Shown: piece after piece, positions 26,282-34,205 of the stretch
Layout: every line of letters starts with the position of its first letter
How positions within the stretch are numbered: position 1 is the first letter of the stretch
Assembly: GCF_003852235.1 (NCBI RefSeq)
Contig: NZ_CP027732.1
Coordinates: forward strand, 2,046,001 to 2,110,000
DNA: 64,000 bases
Source: Pseudomonas sp. R4-35-07
GTDB lineage: Bacteria; Pseudomonadota; Gammaproteobacteria; Pseudomonadales; Pseudomonadaceae
Direction: 5' to 3'
Translations under genes and position numbers: made by a program
Notes under the pieces: model-generated
What the model was told of the DNA's origin: nothing
What the model saw: the letters and a program-made list of their open reading frames with translations, nothing else
Databases searched by the model: none

Positions 26282-27256
26282 ATGACCAGCCAGTTCCCCC
26301 AAGCCCGCCCCCGTCGCCTGCGCCGCTCCCCGGAGCTGCGTGGCTTGTTCCAGGAAAGCGAATTCACGCTCAACGACCTGGTGCTGCCGATTTTCGTCGA
26401 AGAAGAAATCGACGACTTCGTACCGATCACCAGCATGCCGGGCGTGTTGCGTATCCCTGAGAAAAAACTGGCCGGCGAGATCGAGCGTTATGCCCGTGCC
26501 GGCATCAAGTCGGTGATGACCTTTGGCGTATCCCACCATCTTGACGCCAGCGGCAGCGACACGTGGAAAGAACGCGGGCTGGTTTCGCGCATGTCATCGA
26601 TCATCAAGGACGCCGTGCCGGAAATGATCGTGATGTCCGACACCTGCTTCTGCGAATACACCGACCACGGCCACTGCGGCGTGATGCATGGCGCTCACGT
26701 CGACAATGACGCGACCCTGGTTAATCTGGGCAAACAAGCCGTGGCCGCCGCCCGCGCCGGAGCCGACGTGATCGCACCCTCGGCAGCGATGGACGGCCAG
26801 GTCCAGGCCATCCGCCGCGCTCTGGACGACGCCGGTTTTACCCACATCCCGATCATGGCCTACTCCACCAAATTCGCCTCGGCCCTCTACGGCCCGTTCC
26901 GAGAAGCCGGCGGCAGCGCCCTCAAGGGCGACCGCAAAAGCTACCAGATGAACCCGATGAACCGCCGCGAAGCCGTCCGCGAATCGCTGCTCGACGAGCA
27001 GGAAGGCGCCGACGCGCTGATGGTCAAACCGGCCGGCGCTTACCTCGACATCATCCGCGACATCCGCGAAGCCTCACGCCTGCCGGTGGCGGCGTATCAG
27101 GTGAGTGGTGAGTACGCGATGATCAAATTCGGCGCCCAGGCGGGGGCGATTGACGAAGACCGCGTGGTGCGCGAGACCTTGGGCTCGATCAAACGGGCGG
27201 GGGCGGATTTGATTTTTACGTACTTTGCGATGGATTTGGCGTTGGCGGGGATTTAA
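26282..27256 (+). CDS. hemB: Porphobilinogen synthase, zinc-dependent type HemB
   Basis: Condenses two 5-aminolevulinate molecules to porphobilinogen in haem synthesis. 324 residues; the Schiff-base lysines are Lys197 (AYSTKFAS) and Lys249 (LMVKPAGAY). The metal site [16 protein letters not shown] supplies Cys122, Cys124 and Cys132, the zinc-cysteine type of E. coli. The main Pseudomonas HemB known from P. aeruginosa has aspartates there and uses magnesium. This is therefore probably a second, zinc-type HemB. AGGAAAG precedes the ATG. Downstream DNA turns AT-rich abruptly. Confidence 0.93.
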
Positions 27257-27344
27257 GGGCGCCATTTATCCCTGTGGTGAGCGGGTCGGATTTGCTTGCC
27301 ACAGGGGTAGGAGGGCGACCTTGTATATTGATTTTGAACAGCGC

Positions 27345-27794
27345 TCAATTAAATTTTTCGTAATCTTCCGCACCTAATGACTTTAACCATTTCTTGAAGA
27401 AATCAATTTGATCCTGTGGGTTGTTTGTTAGGTTTTCTTCTTCATAGTCGAATAAATGGACAATGTTGTCGTTGGTTGCTTGTTGGCCTAAAGTCATTTC
27501 GTATGCCACAAGCCCAGCGCTCATCTGAGAGGCCATTCTTGATGGTTTTACATTTATTTTGGCCCCTTTACATAGAAAGGTGATGTGCGGAAAATCCGCT
27601 CTAATATTTGCGAAGCAGACGTACAGGTCTCTTCCTCTATAAATTTTCTTAAAGTTTTCGGCTTCTGAAAATGTCATGGTGAGTTTTGTTGGGTCATATT
27701 TGACGGTGACTTGTTTGTGTTCATTGTTGATTATTACTTTTATATTTTTTGTTTCCATTTTATTTTCTGTTAGGGTTTGGTATGAAATATTCAA
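27345..27794 (-). CDS. Immunity-like protein, paralogue of the gene at 28030
   Basis: 149 residues if the TTG at 27794 is used (GGGAGG nine bases upstream); an ATG at 27758 gives 137 residues and aligns better with its paralogue but has no ribosome site. It shares with the gene at 28030 the patterns FLCKGxKINVxPSxMASQMSxGxVAYE and FDYEExxLTNxxxxQIxxxKKW. No signal peptide or enzyme motif. AT-rich codon use unlike flanking genes. Lying downstream of an rhs gene, both are likely immunity proteins against toxin tips (inference). Confidence 0.72.
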   Translation of the reverse strand: MNISYQTLTENKMETKNIKVIINNEHKQVTVKYDPTKLTMTFSEAENFKKIYRGRDLYVCFANIRADFPHITFLCKGAKINVKPSRMASQMSAGLVAYEMTLGQQATNDNIVHLFDYEEENLTNNPQDQIDFFKKWLKSLGAEDYEKFN

Positions 27795-27842
27795 TGCGGC
27801 TAACCTCCCCTTGGAGCTAGATCAGGTGTTGGCAGAAATTTA

Positions 27843-27912
27843 AGAACGCCGTAATTCTGCGGTGGGCGAACTTGCTCGAGTGGGGCTGGGCGGCAGCAAC
27901 TTAACTGGCTAC
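27843..27912. repeat. Degenerate GC-rich REP-like remnant
   Basis: A GC-rich island (TGCGGTGGGCGAACTTGCTC and following) inside AT-rich DNA that resembles a decayed REP; no gene supported. Confidence 0.35.
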
Positions 27913-28029
27913 ACGGATCTAATTGACTGAGCGGGCCATACTGATTAGTTTTATTCCCTGAGTAAGTAACTGTCGAATTTTTCTATTATGCTCTGTGGCT
28001 CGGGGTTTGCTTGTTACATGGTCGTCGAG

Positions 28030-28416
28030 CTAAATTTGCAGTGATTCGGCCCATTTTTTGCGGTAAGAAATCTGTTCGTTGATGTCATTTGTAAGTTCGT
28101 TTTCTTCATAGTCGAATATACGAACGAGTTTTGCATCGGAATCACCTATTTGCGTTTCATAAGCTACAATTCCGCTGGACATTTGTGATGCCATGGCTGA
28201 AGGATAAACATTTATTTTTGAACCTTTACATAGAAATTTAATATCGCTAAATTCTTTTCTCAATGAGTCAAAGCATAGATAAATATCTGCTTCGCTATAC
28301 GTTTTTTTCAGTCCGCTGGCAAAAGTTATTGAAAGTGTTGCTGTTCTTCCGTCGCATTCTATTGTGGCTGTTTCTCGAGTTGAATTTTTGATTACGAATA
28401 TCTCTAGTTCTTTCAT
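28030..28416 (-). CDS. Immunity-like protein, paralogue of the gene at 27345
   Basis: 128 residues beginning MKELEIFVIKNSTRETATIE. Shares FLCKGSKINVYPSAMASQMS and IFDYEENELTNDINEQI with its neighbour and is mostly beta then alpha by pattern. Low GC, cytoplasmic, acidic. It follows a decayed toxin tail and a decayed immunity gene in the same direction, so it probably belonged to a toxin module whose toxin part has been lost. The AGAAG before the ATG is a weak ribosome site. Confidence 0.72.
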   Translation of the reverse strand: MKELEIFVIKNSTRETATIECDGRTATLSITFASGLKKTYSEADIYLCFDSLRKEFSDIKFLCKGSKINVYPSAMASQMSSGIVAYETQIGDSDAKLVRIFDYEENELTNDINEQISYRKKWAESLQI

Positions 28417-28426
28417 TTTTCAGCTT

Positions 28427-28564
28427 CTATTTGGGTTGATTACTGGGTAGACCGACGCTGGGGTTGGCGCCGTGCCAGAAAGCCGTGCCATTTTCAAAAG
28501 GTGAGCTGAATTCCACATATAAAATTTATCGTTCGGAAAAAACATCGATAGTTCGTATTTTCAT
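28427..28564 (-). pseudogene. Remnant of an immunity gene with an internal stop
   Basis: ATG at 28564 begins one base after the stop of the toxin remnant. The frame reads MKIRTIDVFSER, then TAA, then continues in frame for 32 codons (including SSPFENGTAFWHGANPSVG) to a TAG at 28427. The position matches a coupled immunity gene cut short by a nonsense mutation and a truncated 3' end. Below the size at which composition alone would prove coding. Confidence 0.45.
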
Positions 28565-28565
28565 T

Positions 28566-28768
28566 TCACTTCGTCGTTAATGGGACTCGTACAACAGTAT
28601 TGTCTACATTCGCCGTGTTGTCTTTAGCTCAAACGTCCATGTTTCCTCATGGTAATGATGCTTGCTCGGCTTGCTGTTCATTTCATGAAGGCCGTAACGG
28701 ATGCTTCTTTTTGCTTCGCCGGAAACAATTCTGTCGCGATCAGGTCCGCCGGTTCGTGGGTTGTTGTT
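28566..28768 (-). pseudogene. Orphan C-terminal tail of a polymorphic (Rhs-type) toxin, frameshifted
   Basis: On the minus strand the frame reads NNNPRTGGPDRDRIVSGEAK, RSIRYGLHEMNSKPSKHHYH and EETWTFE. A one-base loss in an A-run near 28624 then shifts the frame, which resumes as DNTANVDNTVVRVPLTTK and stops at 28566. It lacks any start or Rhs core, so it looks like a displaced toxin tip. Its 5' end overlaps the end of the immunity gene at 28740. The family is not named with confidence. Confidence 0.55.
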
Positions 28769-29132
28769 CGTTTGTGACGACTTCTGGGTCGTAATGTTGT
28801 AAGCAGCTTAGTAATACCCTCATGAATTCTTGCTGGTCGAGTACTTCGGCGCCGAAATAAGTTGTCATTTTTTTGAATACATCATCAAAGCTATCACCAG
28901 TCATTAAGAAGTGCTCAATTGAATCAATAAACCAATTTTGCTCGGATTTGGTGTATTCCAGAAATTCTGGTTTTGTCAGTTTGTTAAAAAGCTCGACGAG
29001 TTCTTTTTTGCTATTTACGTCTTTTGATGCGATGAATTCTTCTCTTTTGGGGTCGTCGGTATTTTCGATGTCATACGTAAATAGCAGTCCGCGAATTATT
29101 GACATGCTGGGTGCTCTTTTATTCATAATCAT
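28740..29132 (-). CDS. Presumed immunity protein for the adjacent Rhs toxin
   Basis: 130 residues, helical and acidic (MSIIRGLLFTYDIENTDDPK ... SKKELVELFNKLTKPEFLEY). Its ATG overlaps the rhs stop (ATGA), the classic coupling of toxin and immunity. AT-rich like the toxin tip. Its last codons run into the orphan toxin remnant, so its natural C-terminus may have been altered by recombination. No known domain recognised; the role rests on position. Confidence 0.75.
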   Translation of the reverse strand: MIMNKRAPSMSIIRGLLFTYDIENTDDPKREEFIASKDVNSKKELVELFNKLTKPEFLEYTKSEQNWFIDSIEHFLMTGDSFDDVFKKMTTYFGAEVLDQQEFMRVLLSCLQHYDPEVVTNEQQPTNRRT

Positions 29133-32100
29133 AATTCCGCATAGGCTGTTTTGGGATTGCCGTCTCTATTCAGTATTACTCGAGCTTTAGATTGTTGGCT
29201 GTATTTCATCTCGTCGCCAGAGTATCCTTCGCCTACAATTTTTCCCATATTCATGGGTTCTAATGATTGGGCAAGTCCGTTCCTTCTGAAAATGAGTTGT
29301 GCTCGATATATTGCATTTAATTGATCCCGATGGCTAAGAAAGTGGGTTGCAGCAGGTGGGTATTTAGGTTCCCCGATTTTTGGTCCTGAGGTGAAATATT
29401 CAACTACTCCTGTTGTTGGATTCTTTGCTGTTTGTAATCTTTCCAGTTGAGACACGAGCGTTGTCTGTTTTCCGTGTTTTTCTAAAAAATGTGCGCCGGA
29501 TGTTGCTTTTTCAAGCTCGTCTAAACGCCTATAGGCGTTCGCTTCAGCAAGCTCATCAATTCTAGCCTGCCGTTCCGCACGGGTCAGTTGCGGTAAGCCT
29601 GGCTCTCCGTGGTTAACACTCTCGGTAGGGTTTTGAGCACTAACGCTGGGTTTACATCCGTCGCCGCCTGGGCATGTATTCAAGCCTAGCGGGTCTACCC
29701 AGCCTGTCGGATTGGGCACGTACTGGTACGCGTTGCTCCCACCCGCCAGCTTCACCGGGTCGGGCGTCAGGTAACGACCAATATCCGGATTGTAGTAGCG
29801 ATGGCGGTTGTAGTGCAGGCCGCTTTCCGGGTCGAAGTATTGGCCTTGAAAACGAAGCGGGTTGTCGATTTTGCCTACGTCGAGGCGGCTGATTTCACCG
29901 TAGGCGCGGTAGTGGGCGGACCAGACGATTTCGCCATCGGGCGTGGTGAGTTCTTGCGGTGTGCCGAGGTGGTCGAGTTGGTAGTGGTAAGGCTTGGTTT
30001 CTGCTGGGCCGAAGCCTTCCAGCAGTGCCAATGGTCGGAAGCTGTCCGGTTCGTAGAGATAGCTGCGATGGCGTTCCGCATGGTGTTCTGCGATCAGCTT
30101 GTCGCCTTGCCAGAAGAACTCGGTGGTTTTCCCATCGACGGTTTTGCTGATGCGCCGACCGAACGGGTCATAGCGATAATTAGCGGTGTGGCCGTTGGGC
30201 TTGGTGATGCCGATCAACCGGTGCTGGCAGTCGTAGCGGTATTCGGTGACGAGCTGATGGCTTTTGCCGCGCCGTTCGCGGGTCAGGTTGCCGAAGGCGT
30301 CATAGTCATAATGGTGATCGCCTTGGATCACTAGGCGGTTGCCCGCGACGATGTCCGGGCCAGGCCTGTCTTGCATCAGCAAGTTGCCGGCCGGGTTGTG
30401 GCCGAAGCGTTCCTGGACGTCTTGCGAGTGATCGGCTCGGGTCAGGCGGTGGAGCGGGTCGTAGCGGTAAAGGTGTTCGCCTTTGCGGGTGTCGTGCAGG
30501 CGGGTGAGGTTGCCGGTTTTGTCGTAGTCGTAGTGGCGTTGGTAGAGGTGGTTTTCCTGCTGCGTGACGGTGTGGGCGTGCAGGCGGTTTTGCTCGTCAT
30601 AGTGGTAATGGCTGAGCAGTTGGCCTTGTTGGCGTTGGTGTTCGCGACCGGCTTTGAACAGGTGTGAGGTCAGCAGCGAACCGTTCAGTTCGACGGTGGC
30701 GAGGTGGCCGCCTTTGTCGTGGTTGAAGGTGAGGCGATTGTTGTCCGGTAGGCGTAAATGCTGAAGTTGGCCGCAGGCGTCGTAGCCGTAGCGCAAAGTG
30801 CCCCAGCCTTGGTGTTCGGCAGTGAGGCGGTTTTGGCGGTCGTATTCGTAGGCCAGGAACCAGTGGCCGTCGTCGACGCTGAGGAGGTTGCTTTGGCGGT
30901 CGTAGGTGTATTCAACCGTATTGCCGTCGGGCAGGGTTTTTCCTACGAGGCGACCGGCATGGTCACGCTGGTATTGAGTGACGAGCTGACTGCCATCGTC
31001 GCCGTATTCGGTTTTCTCCAGCAGGTTGCCGTTGAGGTCGTAGGCGTACGCGGTGCGTTGGCCGTCAAAGCCGGTTTCCTGTTGGATCAGGCCGTTGGGG
31101 TGATAGTCGAGTTGGTAGGTTTCGCCGACTTCGTTTTCGATGGCGGTGAGCAGTAAGCGGGCGTTGTCGTAGCGGTAGTTGACCTGGGTGCCATCGGCAT
31201 TGATGCGGCGGCTGATCAGGTGCAGGCCGTCGGCGTATTCGTAGCGGGTGACGTGGCCGAGTTCGTCGCGTTCGGCGGTGATTTTTCCGTAGGGGTTGTA
31301 GCTGAATTCTCGTGTGGCACCGTCCGGCAGTACCAAGCGAGTTAACCGACCCACGGCGTCCCATTGATACTGGGTCAGCGCGCCCTGTTCATCCTCACGC
31401 GCAACCTGACGGCCCAGGTCGTCATAGCGGTAGCGCTTGATCCCGCCATTCGGTAACTGTTCTTCAACGAGCTGCCCGCGTTCGTTCCACACCAGCCGAT
31501 GACAGCTGTGATCCGGATACCAAACCCCGGTCAGTTGCCCTTGCTTGTCGTAGCTGTAGTCGGTCGCGTTGCCATCGGGATCGATCTGGCGAATGACATC
31601 GCCTTGGTCATTGCGCTCATATTTCCAGACCGCTTCACCCCGCCGCACCACCCGTACGAAACCGTTGTCATGCTCGTAGGACGTCGGCTCATCATCCCCC
31701 GGAAACAGCGCGATCAAGCGTCCGGCGTCGTCGTATTGATAGGCCGTCACCGCGCCCAGCGGGTCTTGCTCGACCGTCAGGCGGCCCTTGTCATCGTAGG
31801 ATTTGAAATGCTGGGCGCCGTCTGGGTCGATGCGCTGTACCAGCCGCGCCCGCTGGTCATGTACGTAAACTTCCTGGCTGCCGTCGGCGTTGTGCACGGT
31901 GACGCGACCGTCATCGCCCCAGGCATACCGCGTGTCCATCTGCGAAAAGCTGGCCCAATGGCGGACACAGCGCGCCGCCTTGCCGGAACCTTCCCACTCC
32001 CAAAAGAAACTCGCCCCACCGGCCAGTTGCCGTTCAAGAATGACGTGCTGCTCGTCGTACCGATAACGCTCACACTCACCGACGGCATTGGTCGCTGAAA

Positions 32101-33970
32101 CCAGTCGTCCGGCGCCGTCATAGGCGTAGGAAACGACGTTCTGCTCGGTCACCCAGACGAAGGGTTCATGCCCCGTGGCGCGATGAATCTGGTAGTCCAC
32201 CGCCACGATGCGGTCGAATTCATAACGCAACAAAAGCGAACGGCCCACGCCGTTATCCAACCGCTCAATGCGGCCCAATCGATCCCGGACAACCAACAAC
32301 CGGTTGTCATACGCATCGCTGATCGCCGTCAGCACGCCGTCGCAAAAGTGATAAAACCGAGAGGACTGGACCAGCACCAACTCGTCTGGAACCGAGCCTA
32401 AATAAATCGCCGCTTCCGCCAAGCTGTTGGTAATCGCCGGTCGAGAAACCGTCGGCAAGGGCAGGGTGGTCGCGCGATTCTCATGGTCCGTCCACACCAC
32501 CGAATCGCCCACAACCACAAGCCGCTGCGCCAGCGCATGACTCCAGCCAAACCCCAACCCGCAATCCACTTCCACCGCACTGGTGCGATACAAGCGCGTC
32601 CACTCGAACGGCAAGACCCCATCCAGCGCGCCATCGGTAAGTGTCAGCAGTTCCTCGCCAGTGACCATCGACACCGGGCAGCCGTTCGTAACGGTTTTAT
32701 CCGCAGAGGCCGCCGCATCACCCTTCGGGTTCGAAGCCACGGCAGGCACATCATCCACCGCCTCCTGCCGCACCAACGCCGTACGCTGGGTCTTGCTGCG
32801 CACCGCCGGCACCGGATTCGAAACCAGCGTGTCGCCAGCCTTCAAAGGCGCCACCGGCACCGCCTTGATCGGTATTGGGGCACTGCCCAGCAGCACCGGC
32901 TTAAGCGCTTCGGTGTGTCCTTCCAAGCGAGCGGCCCCGAACTGCGCGGCTATCTGCTCCACCCACCTGCGCACCCGGCGTGACTTGATGCCGGCCAGCA
33001 CTTTGGTGCTGATGCGCACCACAACCCCCATGCCGGCCGACGCCAGTCCCAATAACAGGGTGATGACGACTTCGGCGCCAATCGCCCCGAGCATTTCGTT
33101 CATATACGGCGGTGGCAGCATGCGCATCCAGCTGACCAGGGCCGCCAGGTGAACGAACAGCAAAGGCTCATCGCTGAGCACCAGCAAACCCTTGGCGAGG
33201 GTCTCGGCACTTAACGCGAATAACTTTTCAAGCTCGTCCTGGGAAAGGTAATGCAGCAGCTTTTCAGCGTTGGCCAGCGGGTCGGACAACCACTGGAGTA
33301 ACTGCGTGATGTTGTCCCAAACCGAGTAAAGAACTTCGCCAAAGCCTTGGGCATAAGCTCGGTGCAGCGAGAGGTAACGCTGGAGAAAATTCGCTTCGCA
33401 ATAGTTCTTCCATAGCGGTTCAAAGGTGGTGTCCCACTCGCTGCGCAGCCAGCCTTCCAGTGGCGTGATGACCGACTGATAAGAGGCGTACAGTGCCTTG
33501 AAATGCTCGCTGGAAACGTCGGGGTAGAAACTCACCCGGTACCGCTGGTTGCGGTCGCACTCGGTGACTTCGAGGATGCCGCTTGGGCCGATGGTTTTAT
33601 GGATCGGCTCGCCCAGCGGGCCACCGTCTGGATCGATGCGCTGCAACATCACCGGCGTGTTGCCGATCGGCACGAACCGCGAGCTCTGGAACATATGCAC
33701 CAGTGTCAATGTGCCGTTGGCCTGGCATGTAGCGACGGTGCTGCTGGGGAAGATCGAACGGTTGATCGGGGCGACCAGAGCCACCTCATTCCCGACCTTG
33801 AACACCTGCTCCACATCCAGTGCCGAAGAGCTGAAGAAGTTCTGCGCCCAGCTGTCGTAGTGGTTGAGGCAACCGCGGAAATCGCTGAGCACGGATTCGA
33901 CGTCCCGCGTCTTAGAATCCATCGCGGCCAGCACCAGAAAGCCGATGGCTCGGCCGGTTGCTTCGATCAT
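29129..33970 (-). CDS. Rhs/YD-repeat polymorphic toxin
   Basis: 1613 residues from MIEATGRAIG (ATG 33970; a GTG at 34027 would add 19). Residues 1-430 are a helical N-terminal region with one membrane segment (297-318) and no PAAR motif. About 430 onward is DUF6531 (NGCPVSMVTGEELLTLT), then many YD repeats (YRYDDLGRQ, YEYDRQNRLT) forming the Rhs shell. The core ends RYLTPDPVKLAGG ... PTGWVDPLGL (about 1421-1430). The last 183 residues (29132-29680) are a variable toxin with HFLEKHGKQTT, FLSHRDQLNAIYRAQ and GEGYSGDEMKY. The tip is AT-rich, the core GC-rich. Probably released after self-cleavage and delivered into rival cells; the delivery route is not visible here. Immunity gene overlaps the stop. 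Confidence 0.9.
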   Translation of the reverse strand: MIEATGRAIGFLVLAAMDSKTRDVESVLSDFRGCLNHYDSWAQNFFSSSALDVEQVFKVGNEVALVAPINRSIFPSSTVATCQANGTLTLVHMFQSSRFVPIGNTPVMLQRIDPDGGPLGEPIHKTIGPSGILEVTECDRNQRYRVSFYPDVSSEHFKALYASYQSVITPLEGWLRSEWDTTFEPLWKNYCEANFLQRYLSLHRAYAQGFGEVLYSVWDNITQLLQWLSDPLANAEKLLHYLSQDELEKLFALSAETLAKGLLVLSDEPLLFVHLAALVSWMRMLPPPYMNEMLGAIGAEVVITLLLGLASAGMGVVVRISTKVLAGIKSRRVRRWVEQIAAQFGAARLEGHTEALKPVLLGSAPIPIKAVPVAPLKAGDTLVSNPVPAVRSKTQRTALVRQEAVDDVPAVASNPKGDAAASADKTVTNGCPVSMVTGEELLTLTDGALDGVLPFEWTRLYRTSAVEVDCGLGFGWSHALAQRLVVVGDSVVWTDHENRATTLPLPTVSRPAITNSLAEAAIYLGSVPDELVLVQSSRFYHFCDGVLTAISDAYDNRLLVVRDRLGRIERLDNGVGRSLLLRYEFDRIVAVDYQIHRATGHEPFVWVTEQNVVSYAYDGAGRLVSATNAVGECERYRYDEQHVILERQLAGGASFFWEWEGSGKAARCVRHWASFSQMDTRYAWGDDGRVTVHNADGSQEVYVHDQRARLVQRIDPDGAQHFKSYDDKGRLTVEQDPLGAVTAYQYDDAGRLIALFPGDDEPTSYEHDNGFVRVVRRGEAVWKYERNDQGDVIRQIDPDGNATDYSYDKQGQLTGVWYPDHSCHRLVWNERGQLVEEQLPNGGIKRYRYDDLGRQVAREDEQGALTQYQWDAVGRLTRLVLPDGATREFSYNPYGKITAERDELGHVTRYEYADGLHLISRRINADGTQVNYRYDNARLLLTAIENEVGETYQLDYHPNGLIQQETGFDGQRTAYAYDLNGNLLEKTEYGDDGSQLVTQYQRDHAGRLVGKTLPDGNTVEYTYDRQSNLLSVDDGHWFLAYEYDRQNRLTAEHQGWGTLRYGYDACGQLQHLRLPDNNRLTFNHDKGGHLATVELNGSLLTSHLFKAGREHQRQQGQLLSHYHYDEQNRLHAHTVTQQENHLYQRHYDYDKTGNLTRLHDTRKGEHLYRYDPLHRLTRADHSQDVQERFGHNPAGNLLMQDRPGPDIVAGNRLVIQGDHHYDYDAFGNLTRERRGKSHQLVTEYRYDCQHRLIGITKPNGHTANYRYDPFGRRISKTVDGKTTEFFWQGDKLIAEHHAERHRSYLYEPDSFRPLALLEGFGPAETKPYHYQLDHLGTPQELTTPDGEIVWSAHYRAYGEISRLDVGKIDNPLRFQGQYFDPESGLHYNRHRYYNPDIGRYLTPDPVKLAGGSNAYQYVPNPTGWVDPLGLNTCPGGDGCKPSVSAQNPTESVNHGEPGLPQLTRAERQARIDELAEANAYRRLDELEKATSGAHFLEKHGKQTTLVSQLERLQTAKNPTTGVVEYFTSGPKIGEPKYPPAATHFLSHRDQLNAIYRAQLIFRRNGLAQSLEPMNMGKIVGEGYSGDEMKYSQQSKARVILNRDGNPKTAYAEL

Positions 33971-33974
33971 GGGC

Positions 33975-33995
33975 GAGCCCCATCGATCAGGGCTC
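33975..33995. promoter_or_regulatory. Hairpin in the rhs translation start region
   Basis: GAGCCC/GGGCTC arms around a nine-base loop directly upstream of the ATG at 33970, covering the place of the ribosome site. Confidence 0.3.
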
Positions 33996-34205
33996 TCACT
34001 GGAAAAACCATCTGCACTCCCTCGCACTGTTTGATCAGGCGAGGGACTTTGCAGAGGTTTTCAGGGCAGGGGAGTAGAGCTTATCTGGCGTTAACGTGGG
34101 AATTTTCAACCAGCGCCGCACCACGTTCGGCATAGCAGCGAACCCCGGTTAGACTTGCCTGTCGATATCCCCATTGCCCGGCCCGCCGTTCACCAAGGAA
34201 GCCTC

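Follow-up and report, generated by a model that had tools for sequence, protein, structure and literature searches.

What does the AT-rich DNA behind an rhs gene of Pseudomonas sp. R4-35-07 record about the toxins that this gene carried in the past? The locus lies in a stretch of 64,000 nucleotides (hereafter the window; G000:C1:2046001-2110000) of a 5.84 Mb genome in a single contig. An earlier note, made from the letters of the window, had read it as a decaying toxin/immunity array that records at least two, perhaps three, changes of the Rhs tip. Our analysis supports the inference of past tip changes and shows the count to be too low: three displaced tips are well supported and a fourth one is likely. 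We consider it highly probable that the Rhs tip was exchanged at least three, and probably four, times, and that at each exchange the old immunity gene was left behind, whole or in part, with a toxin stub or none. This count rests on the finding that three tip/immunity pairs of the kinds left in the window (TipE-ImmE, TipB-ImmB2, and TipF-ImmF) occur complete on Rhs cores at the same chromosomal site in other genomes, beside an ALAD gene, and that the cognate pair of a further orphan gene, ImmB1, is found in the locus L034. TipA, ImmA, TipB, and the like are names coined in this analysis; L and G numbers denote loci and genomes, respectively. The features are the following (window coordinates):

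34027 to 29129, minus strand: Rhs gene, behind which the array lies
29681..34027, minus strand: N-terminal part and core of Rhs up to the DPLGL motif (Pfam, NCBIfam, and PDB matches to the core)
29132..29680, minus strand: TipA, the present tip, a predicted RNase A-like toxin (structure model and loci of relatives)
28740..29132, minus strand: ImmA, cognate immunity gene of TipA (an ImmA relative lies behind the tip in relatives)
28569..28771, minus strand: TipE remnant, a displaced toxin, residues 71-138 in two frames
28451..28564, minus strand: ImmE remnant, residues 1-38, with one stop
28417..28445, minus strand: stub of a displaced TreX-like (TipB-type) toxin, about eight end codons (DNA match to L034 up to 28445)
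28030..28416, minus strand: ImmB1, intact orphan TriX-like immunity gene (71% to the cognate gene of L034)
27951..27989, minus strand: likely tail of ImmF, a CdiI_2-type immunity gene, 12 codons
27857-27897, minus strand: REP-like stretch
27825-27854, minus strand: likely relic of the end of an ALAD gene
27759..27794, minus strand: stub of a second displaced TreX-like toxin, about 11 codons with a stop
27345..27758, minus strand: ImmB2, intact orphan TriX-like immunity gene
26282..27256, plus strand: ALAD (hemB-type) gene, flank and landmark of the site

Layers of the Rhs array

According to its Pfam, NCBIfam, and PDB matches, the Rhs core is a standard one, ending in DPxGL and followed by a variable tip and an adjoining immunity gene; no PAAR or other Pfam domain was found in the first 400 residues of the protein. 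Outward from the core, the layers follow one another in the order A (present), E, B1, F (likely), and B2. The GC content is 0.39-0.42 across 27250-29499 and 0.55-0.65 on either side, with intermediate values at the boundaries, and a 4-bp overlap (29129-29132) joins the Rhs stop to the ImmA ATG, in agreement with the AT-rich tip overlapping an immunity-like gene that the earlier note had described. Behind the present tip, no core pieces were found in the window. Moreover, PADLOC at E 0.01 gave no match for the Rhs protein, ImmA, ImmB1, or ImmB2, and Pfam and NCBIfam gave nothing above the cut-off for the TipE piece, ImmA, ImmB1, or ImmB2.

The present tip, TipA, is predicted from a structure model to be a toxin with an RNase A-like fold. 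The model used was the second one, built from 29 sequences; the first, from seven sequences, was poor (predicted local distance difference test score 64.1) and its fold search gave nothing useful. For TipA itself, Pfam had no match and NCBIfam nothing above its cut-off, and the RNAse_A_bac family matched four of its 29 relatives below the cut-off (best E 0.035); the sequence relation of TipA to the RNase A-like CdiA-CT of Yersinia kristensenii (PDB 5e3e) is weak. TipA relatives were matched in 99 genomes, and an ImmA relative stands behind the tip in all 30 loci examined. A PDB sequence search at E 1 gave no match for ImmA. Old TipE DNA, read in another frame, probably supplies the final codons of ImmA, because the TipE match starts at 28774, upstream of the ImmA stop at 28740; the C-terminal tails of ImmA relatives vary as well.

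The second layer consists of what is left of TipE and its partner ImmE. Compared with the intact TipE of L046 (138 residues), the window retains residues 71-121 (28619-28771) and 120-138 (28569-28625) in two different frames, and of the 126-residue ImmE it retains residues 1-38, interrupted by one stop (28451-28564); the frameshifted toxin tail and the stop-broken immunity frame had both been recognized in the earlier note. That note had proposed looking for a strain in which the orphan tail is joined to an Rhs core. Of 398 Pseudomonas genomes, 18, counting that of the window, have the readable tail (28607-28759), and in five of the 17 others it lies within an open frame of 1561-1619 residues. 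In the relatives fetched, which carry Rhs cores, TipE follows the core directly or a few bases further, and the complete TipE-ImmE pair stands behind a core at the ALAD site in L113 and L131. At the DNA level, the layer is 85.5% identical to L133 over 325 bp, from 28774. For the intact TipE and ImmE of L046, neither Pfam nor NCBIfam had a match above the cut-off, and no match for TipE was retrieved from the PDB sequence search at E 1. A long array in L142 (1-7054) holds TipE-ImmE, two ImmY, an ImmB pair, ImmX, and an ImmA relative, followed by the end of a further TipE, pieces of ImmE, and one more ImmY.

Layers B1 and B2 hold the two intact genes. ImmB1 and ImmB2 are 45% identical, in accordance with the two paralogous immunity-like genes of the earlier note, and each is still preceded by the end codons of its own toxin type. 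ImmB2 matches TriX (chain A of PDB 8s2m, E 2.9e-24), while a TipB related to the lost tips, borne by a second Rhs locus of the same genome, matches TreX (chain B of 8s2m, E 9.9e-31) and is classed by Pfam as Scabin-like (1.3e-13). In the genus, 100 of 398 genomes have ImmB relatives. An ImmB2 relative is encoded in 22 of 75 candidate stretches, corresponding to 21 loci, 10 of which are at the ALAD site; in eight of these ten (L022-L026, L030, L037, whose contig starts at the tip, and L041) the gene has a TipB tip on one side and the ALAD gene on the other; the remaining two, L036 and L040, are arrays. The ImmB2 of the window is 87-90% identical to those of L022-L026 and L041 (90% to L022), 74% to that of L030, and 70% to that of L037. 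The DNA match with L022 spans the toxin end, ImmB2, and the intergenic stretch (27794-27260). Its first 36 bp, upstream of the ImmB2 start, correspond to the end of the tip gene in these loci; for this reason the start of ImmB2 is probably the ATG at 27758 and not the TTG at 27794 from which the frame had been listed. Concerning ImmB1, the gene is 78% identical to that of L036 and 71% to the one behind a TipB-type tip in L034, a locus that adjoins an M20 peptidase gene, at a site other than the ALAD one; the DNA match with L034 reaches about 26 bp into the toxin end.

Of 27 ImmB2-type sequences, 20 are cognate (with an intact TipB-type tip directly upstream) and seven are orphan. The earlier note had regarded a lack of rhs homology, or a wide occurrence of these genes without rhs, as speaking against an rhs array; neither appeared, for the ImmB2-type genes or for TipA. 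In two sequences, L142 3147-3959 (the same sequence being in L082) and L078 1081-1887, one open frame of roughly 270 codons contains two ImmB-type genes, which may represent a tandem immunity fusion.

Between ImmB1 and the ImmB2 stub lie 238 bp, missing from the earlier note, that likely hold part of a further cassette, which would be the fourth displaced one and is less certain than the other layers. This spacer matches two of 397 other genomes at E 0.001, in L152 and L153. In L152, which is an ALAD site, an RNase A-type tip (PF18431, 1e-26) is followed by a CdiI_2 immunity gene (2.2e-13) and then by the ALAD gene; the spacer is 70% identical across 167 bp, a stretch that reaches from the final 12 ImmF codons into the end of the ALAD gene. 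The alignment scores of the spacer with L152 and L092 are above those of all 500 shuffles, also without the REP-like part, and the end of the window's own ALAD gene is 67% identical over 61 bp to the place of the relic in the spacer. A parallel is offered by L112, where TipA-ImmA is followed by ImmF residues 80-102 and then by the ALAD gene. The match in L153 covers 43 bp of the REP-like stretch, which in that genome lies at a place without rhs genes.

Probable tip exchange and its alternatives

The organization described above could be explained as follows. Incoming DNA from another rhs locus would pair with the conserved core at one end, and its other end, which lies past the incoming immunity gene and in some cases within the donor's flank gene, would be joined to the old tip or array in the absence of homology. 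The incoming tip would land in frame with the core, and the older layers would be shifted downstream. The toxin pieces left in the window (8-68 codons) would be inert, and ImmB1 and ImmB2 would protect against TreX-like ADP-ribosyltransferase tips; in particular, ImmB2 would be protective against the tips borne today by sister species at the ALAD site. Whether the kept genes protect against neighbours that go on using the old toxin becomes testable, and the locus places the joints of three or more successive tip changes with a precision of some bases.

To evaluate the selection on the kept genes, the ratio of nonsynonymous to synonymous substitution rates (dN/dS) was calculated, medians being taken from pairs with dN of 0.02-0.25 and unsaturated dS. 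For ImmB2-type genes, the median was 0.077 (0.034-0.132) in 59 cognate pairs and 0.068 (0.036-0.186) in 56 orphan-cognate pairs, with 0.096 for the window gene vs. that of L022. Saturation affected 25 of the 36 ImmB1 pairs, and the comparison of the window with L034 gave 0.067. The low values of the orphans fit continued selection on them.

A number of points weigh against the scenario of repeated tip exchange with retained immunity. The order of the layers is read from position, and the events are undated. The stub of layer B1 is only about 26 bp long, and its donor type was encountered away from the ALAD site, in L034, next to the M20 peptidase gene. Layer F amounts to 167 bp at 70%, the REP-like stretch included; the alignment scores of the spacer with L111 and L103 do not exceed those of shuffles, and five of 200 shuffled spacers match some of 43 flank sequences at E 0.05. 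As regards selection, 219 of 351 ImmB2-type pairs were saturated and a few more fell outside the dN limits, and pairwise dN/dS also covers the time before displacement. Lastly, the ImmB2 frame stayed open in 1572 of 5000 drift runs, so that an open frame alone is weak evidence of constraint.

Among the other explanations, the array might have been built in another strain and imported as a single block through homologous recombination in the Rhs core and in the ALAD flank. The layers would then be real and the exchanges would have taken place in another lineage. Such imports have been reported in Vibrio, in the part of Kirchberger 2017 (PMC5361080) considered here, and the nearest relatives by ALAD identity (L091, L092, and L094) carry other tips, with no ImmB2 match in the fetched stretch. 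On the other side, the downstream end of ImmB2 and the intergenic stretch are 86% identical to L022 up to 27260, as expected of a resident gene, but a block extending into the ALAD gene would give the same match. On the whole, we regard a block import as rather unlikely.

Much less probable is the acquisition of immunity genes alone, as in the acquired defence arrays of Bacteroidales, without their ever having stood behind a tip at the ALAD site. Relatives do hold orphan immunity genes without a toxin stub (e.g., ImmB2 in L036); in the window, however, toxin end codons precede both intact orphans and layer E keeps 68 toxin codons, and ImmB2 lies behind a tip in most of the ALAD-site loci that carry it (see above). 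Slightly less probable still is that the layers form a silent reserve from which tips could be brought back into use by recombining with the core, a behaviour demonstrated for an orphan Rhs tip of Salmonella: L135 and L139 do hold complete displaced tips with a core piece in front, whereas in the window no core piece was found with the displaced tips and the toxin pieces are stubs or broken. Finally, ImmB1 and ImmB2 are neighbours and paralogous (45% identical), but a tandem duplication of one gene is the least probable origin of the two, because each is closer to genes elsewhere (90% to L022 for ImmB2; 78% to L036 and 71% to L034 for ImmB1), and each has a separate toxin stub.

Other rhs loci and flank-gene ends

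All 199 genomes searched (198 besides the window's own) had some match to the ALAD gene, many with only about 44% identity. In a survey of the ALAD site covering the 37 closest by ALAD gene of the 198 other matching genomes, and excluding other ALAD-site loci from the count, an Rhs core adjoined the gene in 17 cases, none was present in the fetched stretch in 19, and the contig ended in one. The tips of the 17 are the following: one type is common to L091, L094, and L095; F occurs in L092, L103, and L111, with a partial F in L107; A is carried by L109, L110, and L112, B by L106, and E by L113; L098 has a type with an ImmY relative; another type is common to L099 and L104; and Ntox47 is found in L100. 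In L105 (G171) there is no tip, and the Rhs frame ends two codons past the core, 123 bp from the ALAD gene. The ALAD gene of the window is one of two in its own genome.

The same genome harbors three further Rhs genes. The second one, at 3.40 Mb, is 96% identical to the window Rhs in the core and 97% in the N-terminal part, and bears a TreX-like tip with its cognate ImmB; the window and the 3.40 Mb loci draw on one tip pool. The array at 3.40 Mb (L009 8118-10893) contains ImmB2- and ImmA-type pieces, an intact ImmX, ImmA relative, and ImmY, and one broken ImmY. The third gene (1.78 Mb) has a Tox-HNH-EHHH tip and an immunity gene, followed by a gene of another kind; the fourth (5.73 Mb) has a PAAR motif and lies behind VgrG and a ClpV-like gene (5.72-5.73 Mb).

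An M20 peptidase gene flanks one of the rhs sites, and its end was found adjoining rhs tips away from the complete copy in G365 (twice), G209, G236, G136, and G031; in G350 it lies at its own site, between older layers. The order in L150 is TipA, ImmA, ImmY, the M20 peptidase end, a TipF end piece with ImmF, older layers, and lastly, at the opposite end, the complete peptidase gene. In L135, we observed TipB, ImmB2, an M20 peptidase end, ImmY, and another peptidase end (47 bp; E 0.025 for protein and 1.8e-7 for DNA), immediately followed by a core piece with TipE-ImmE; the complete M20 gene of that genome is about 0.95 Mb away. A core piece still stands in front of displaced tips in L135, L139, and L128. 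In G209 and G236, the relics are behind TipA-ImmA and the complete gene is on other contigs. A search for the M20 end in 194 whole genomes retrieved two more short relics (G136 and G031), at least 80% identical; both lie about 0.4 kb away from a TipA match, on contigs other than those of the complete gene; partial frames of G058 (129 residues) and G080 (134 residues) and matches at the edges of L175 and L179, cut by the locus end, were excluded. Since the relics of G365, G209, G236, and G350 come from loci fetched for other reasons, these small numbers give no frequency.

The M20 relics fit linear incoming DNA ending inside the donor's flank gene, as well as transfer between sites, and flank-gene ends in arrays argue for linear DNA with one homologous end. 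The window holds a likely tag of this kind, the ALAD relic at 27825-27854. Whether Pseudomonas Rhs cassettes generally travel as linear pieces carrying the end of the donor's flank gene, so that arrays hold provenance tags, appears to us evenly balanced; if so, tips would hop between chromosomal rhs sites and each array could be read as an ordered list of donors. The way in which tips are replaced is a second question that the locus makes testable.

Relation to known systems

The kind of system is already known, since displaced rhs/cdi tips and immunity arrays occur in enterobacteria and Vibrio. What is added here is a fine-grained record of layers in Pseudomonas, the pair named behind each layer, and flank-gene ends as possible provenance tags. 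The occurrence of such ends between layers, or beside tips far from their own site, is less familiar and suggests the origin of a cassette. Searches for papers on Pseudomonas rhs arrays brought up no work on this locus, judging from titles and abstract openings, which is no proof of absence.

In the type VI secretion system immunity arrays of Vibrio cholerae, sequential effector displacement with one homologous and one illegitimate end has been proposed, according to the portion of Kirchberger 2017 (PMC5361080) considered here. These arrays resemble the present one in having one active pair, older immunity genes behind it, and a partial old effector, and one of them holds a short region normally downstream of effectors. 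They differ in that the carrier in the window is an Rhs gene at a Pseudomonas ALAD site, the toxin pieces are 8-68 codons long, and flank-gene ends are found also at other rhs sites of Pseudomonas relatives.

For the displacement of enterobacterial rhs C-termini, circular intermediates have been proposed (Jackson 2009, PMC2935791), and orphan cdi/rhs modules have been described (Poole 2011, PMC3150448). In the parts of these two papers considered, tips are likewise swapped behind a constant core, with the old ones downstream; theirs are tips with core pieces or whole modules, whereas in the window only immunity genes are intact and no core piece was found. In P. aeruginosa, illegitimate joining has been inferred for effector swaps, in the part of that report considered here (PMC11751169).

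Protection by an orphan Rhs immunity protein was demonstrated experimentally in Serratia marcescens (PMC10539506, in the section considered here). That orphan gene, too, lies behind rhs and is homologous to the cognate immunity gene of another strain; the window differs in having two intact orphans with toxin stubs, for which protection is predicted. From the acquired defence array of Bacteroidales, the window differs in that toxin pieces are linked to the immunity genes. With regard to the TreX-TriX complex (PDB 8s2m), whose TreX is from Xenorhabdus bovienii according to the part of the paper considered (PMC12605009), TipB and ImmB2 match its two chains by sequence, and the window keeps only the immunity genes.

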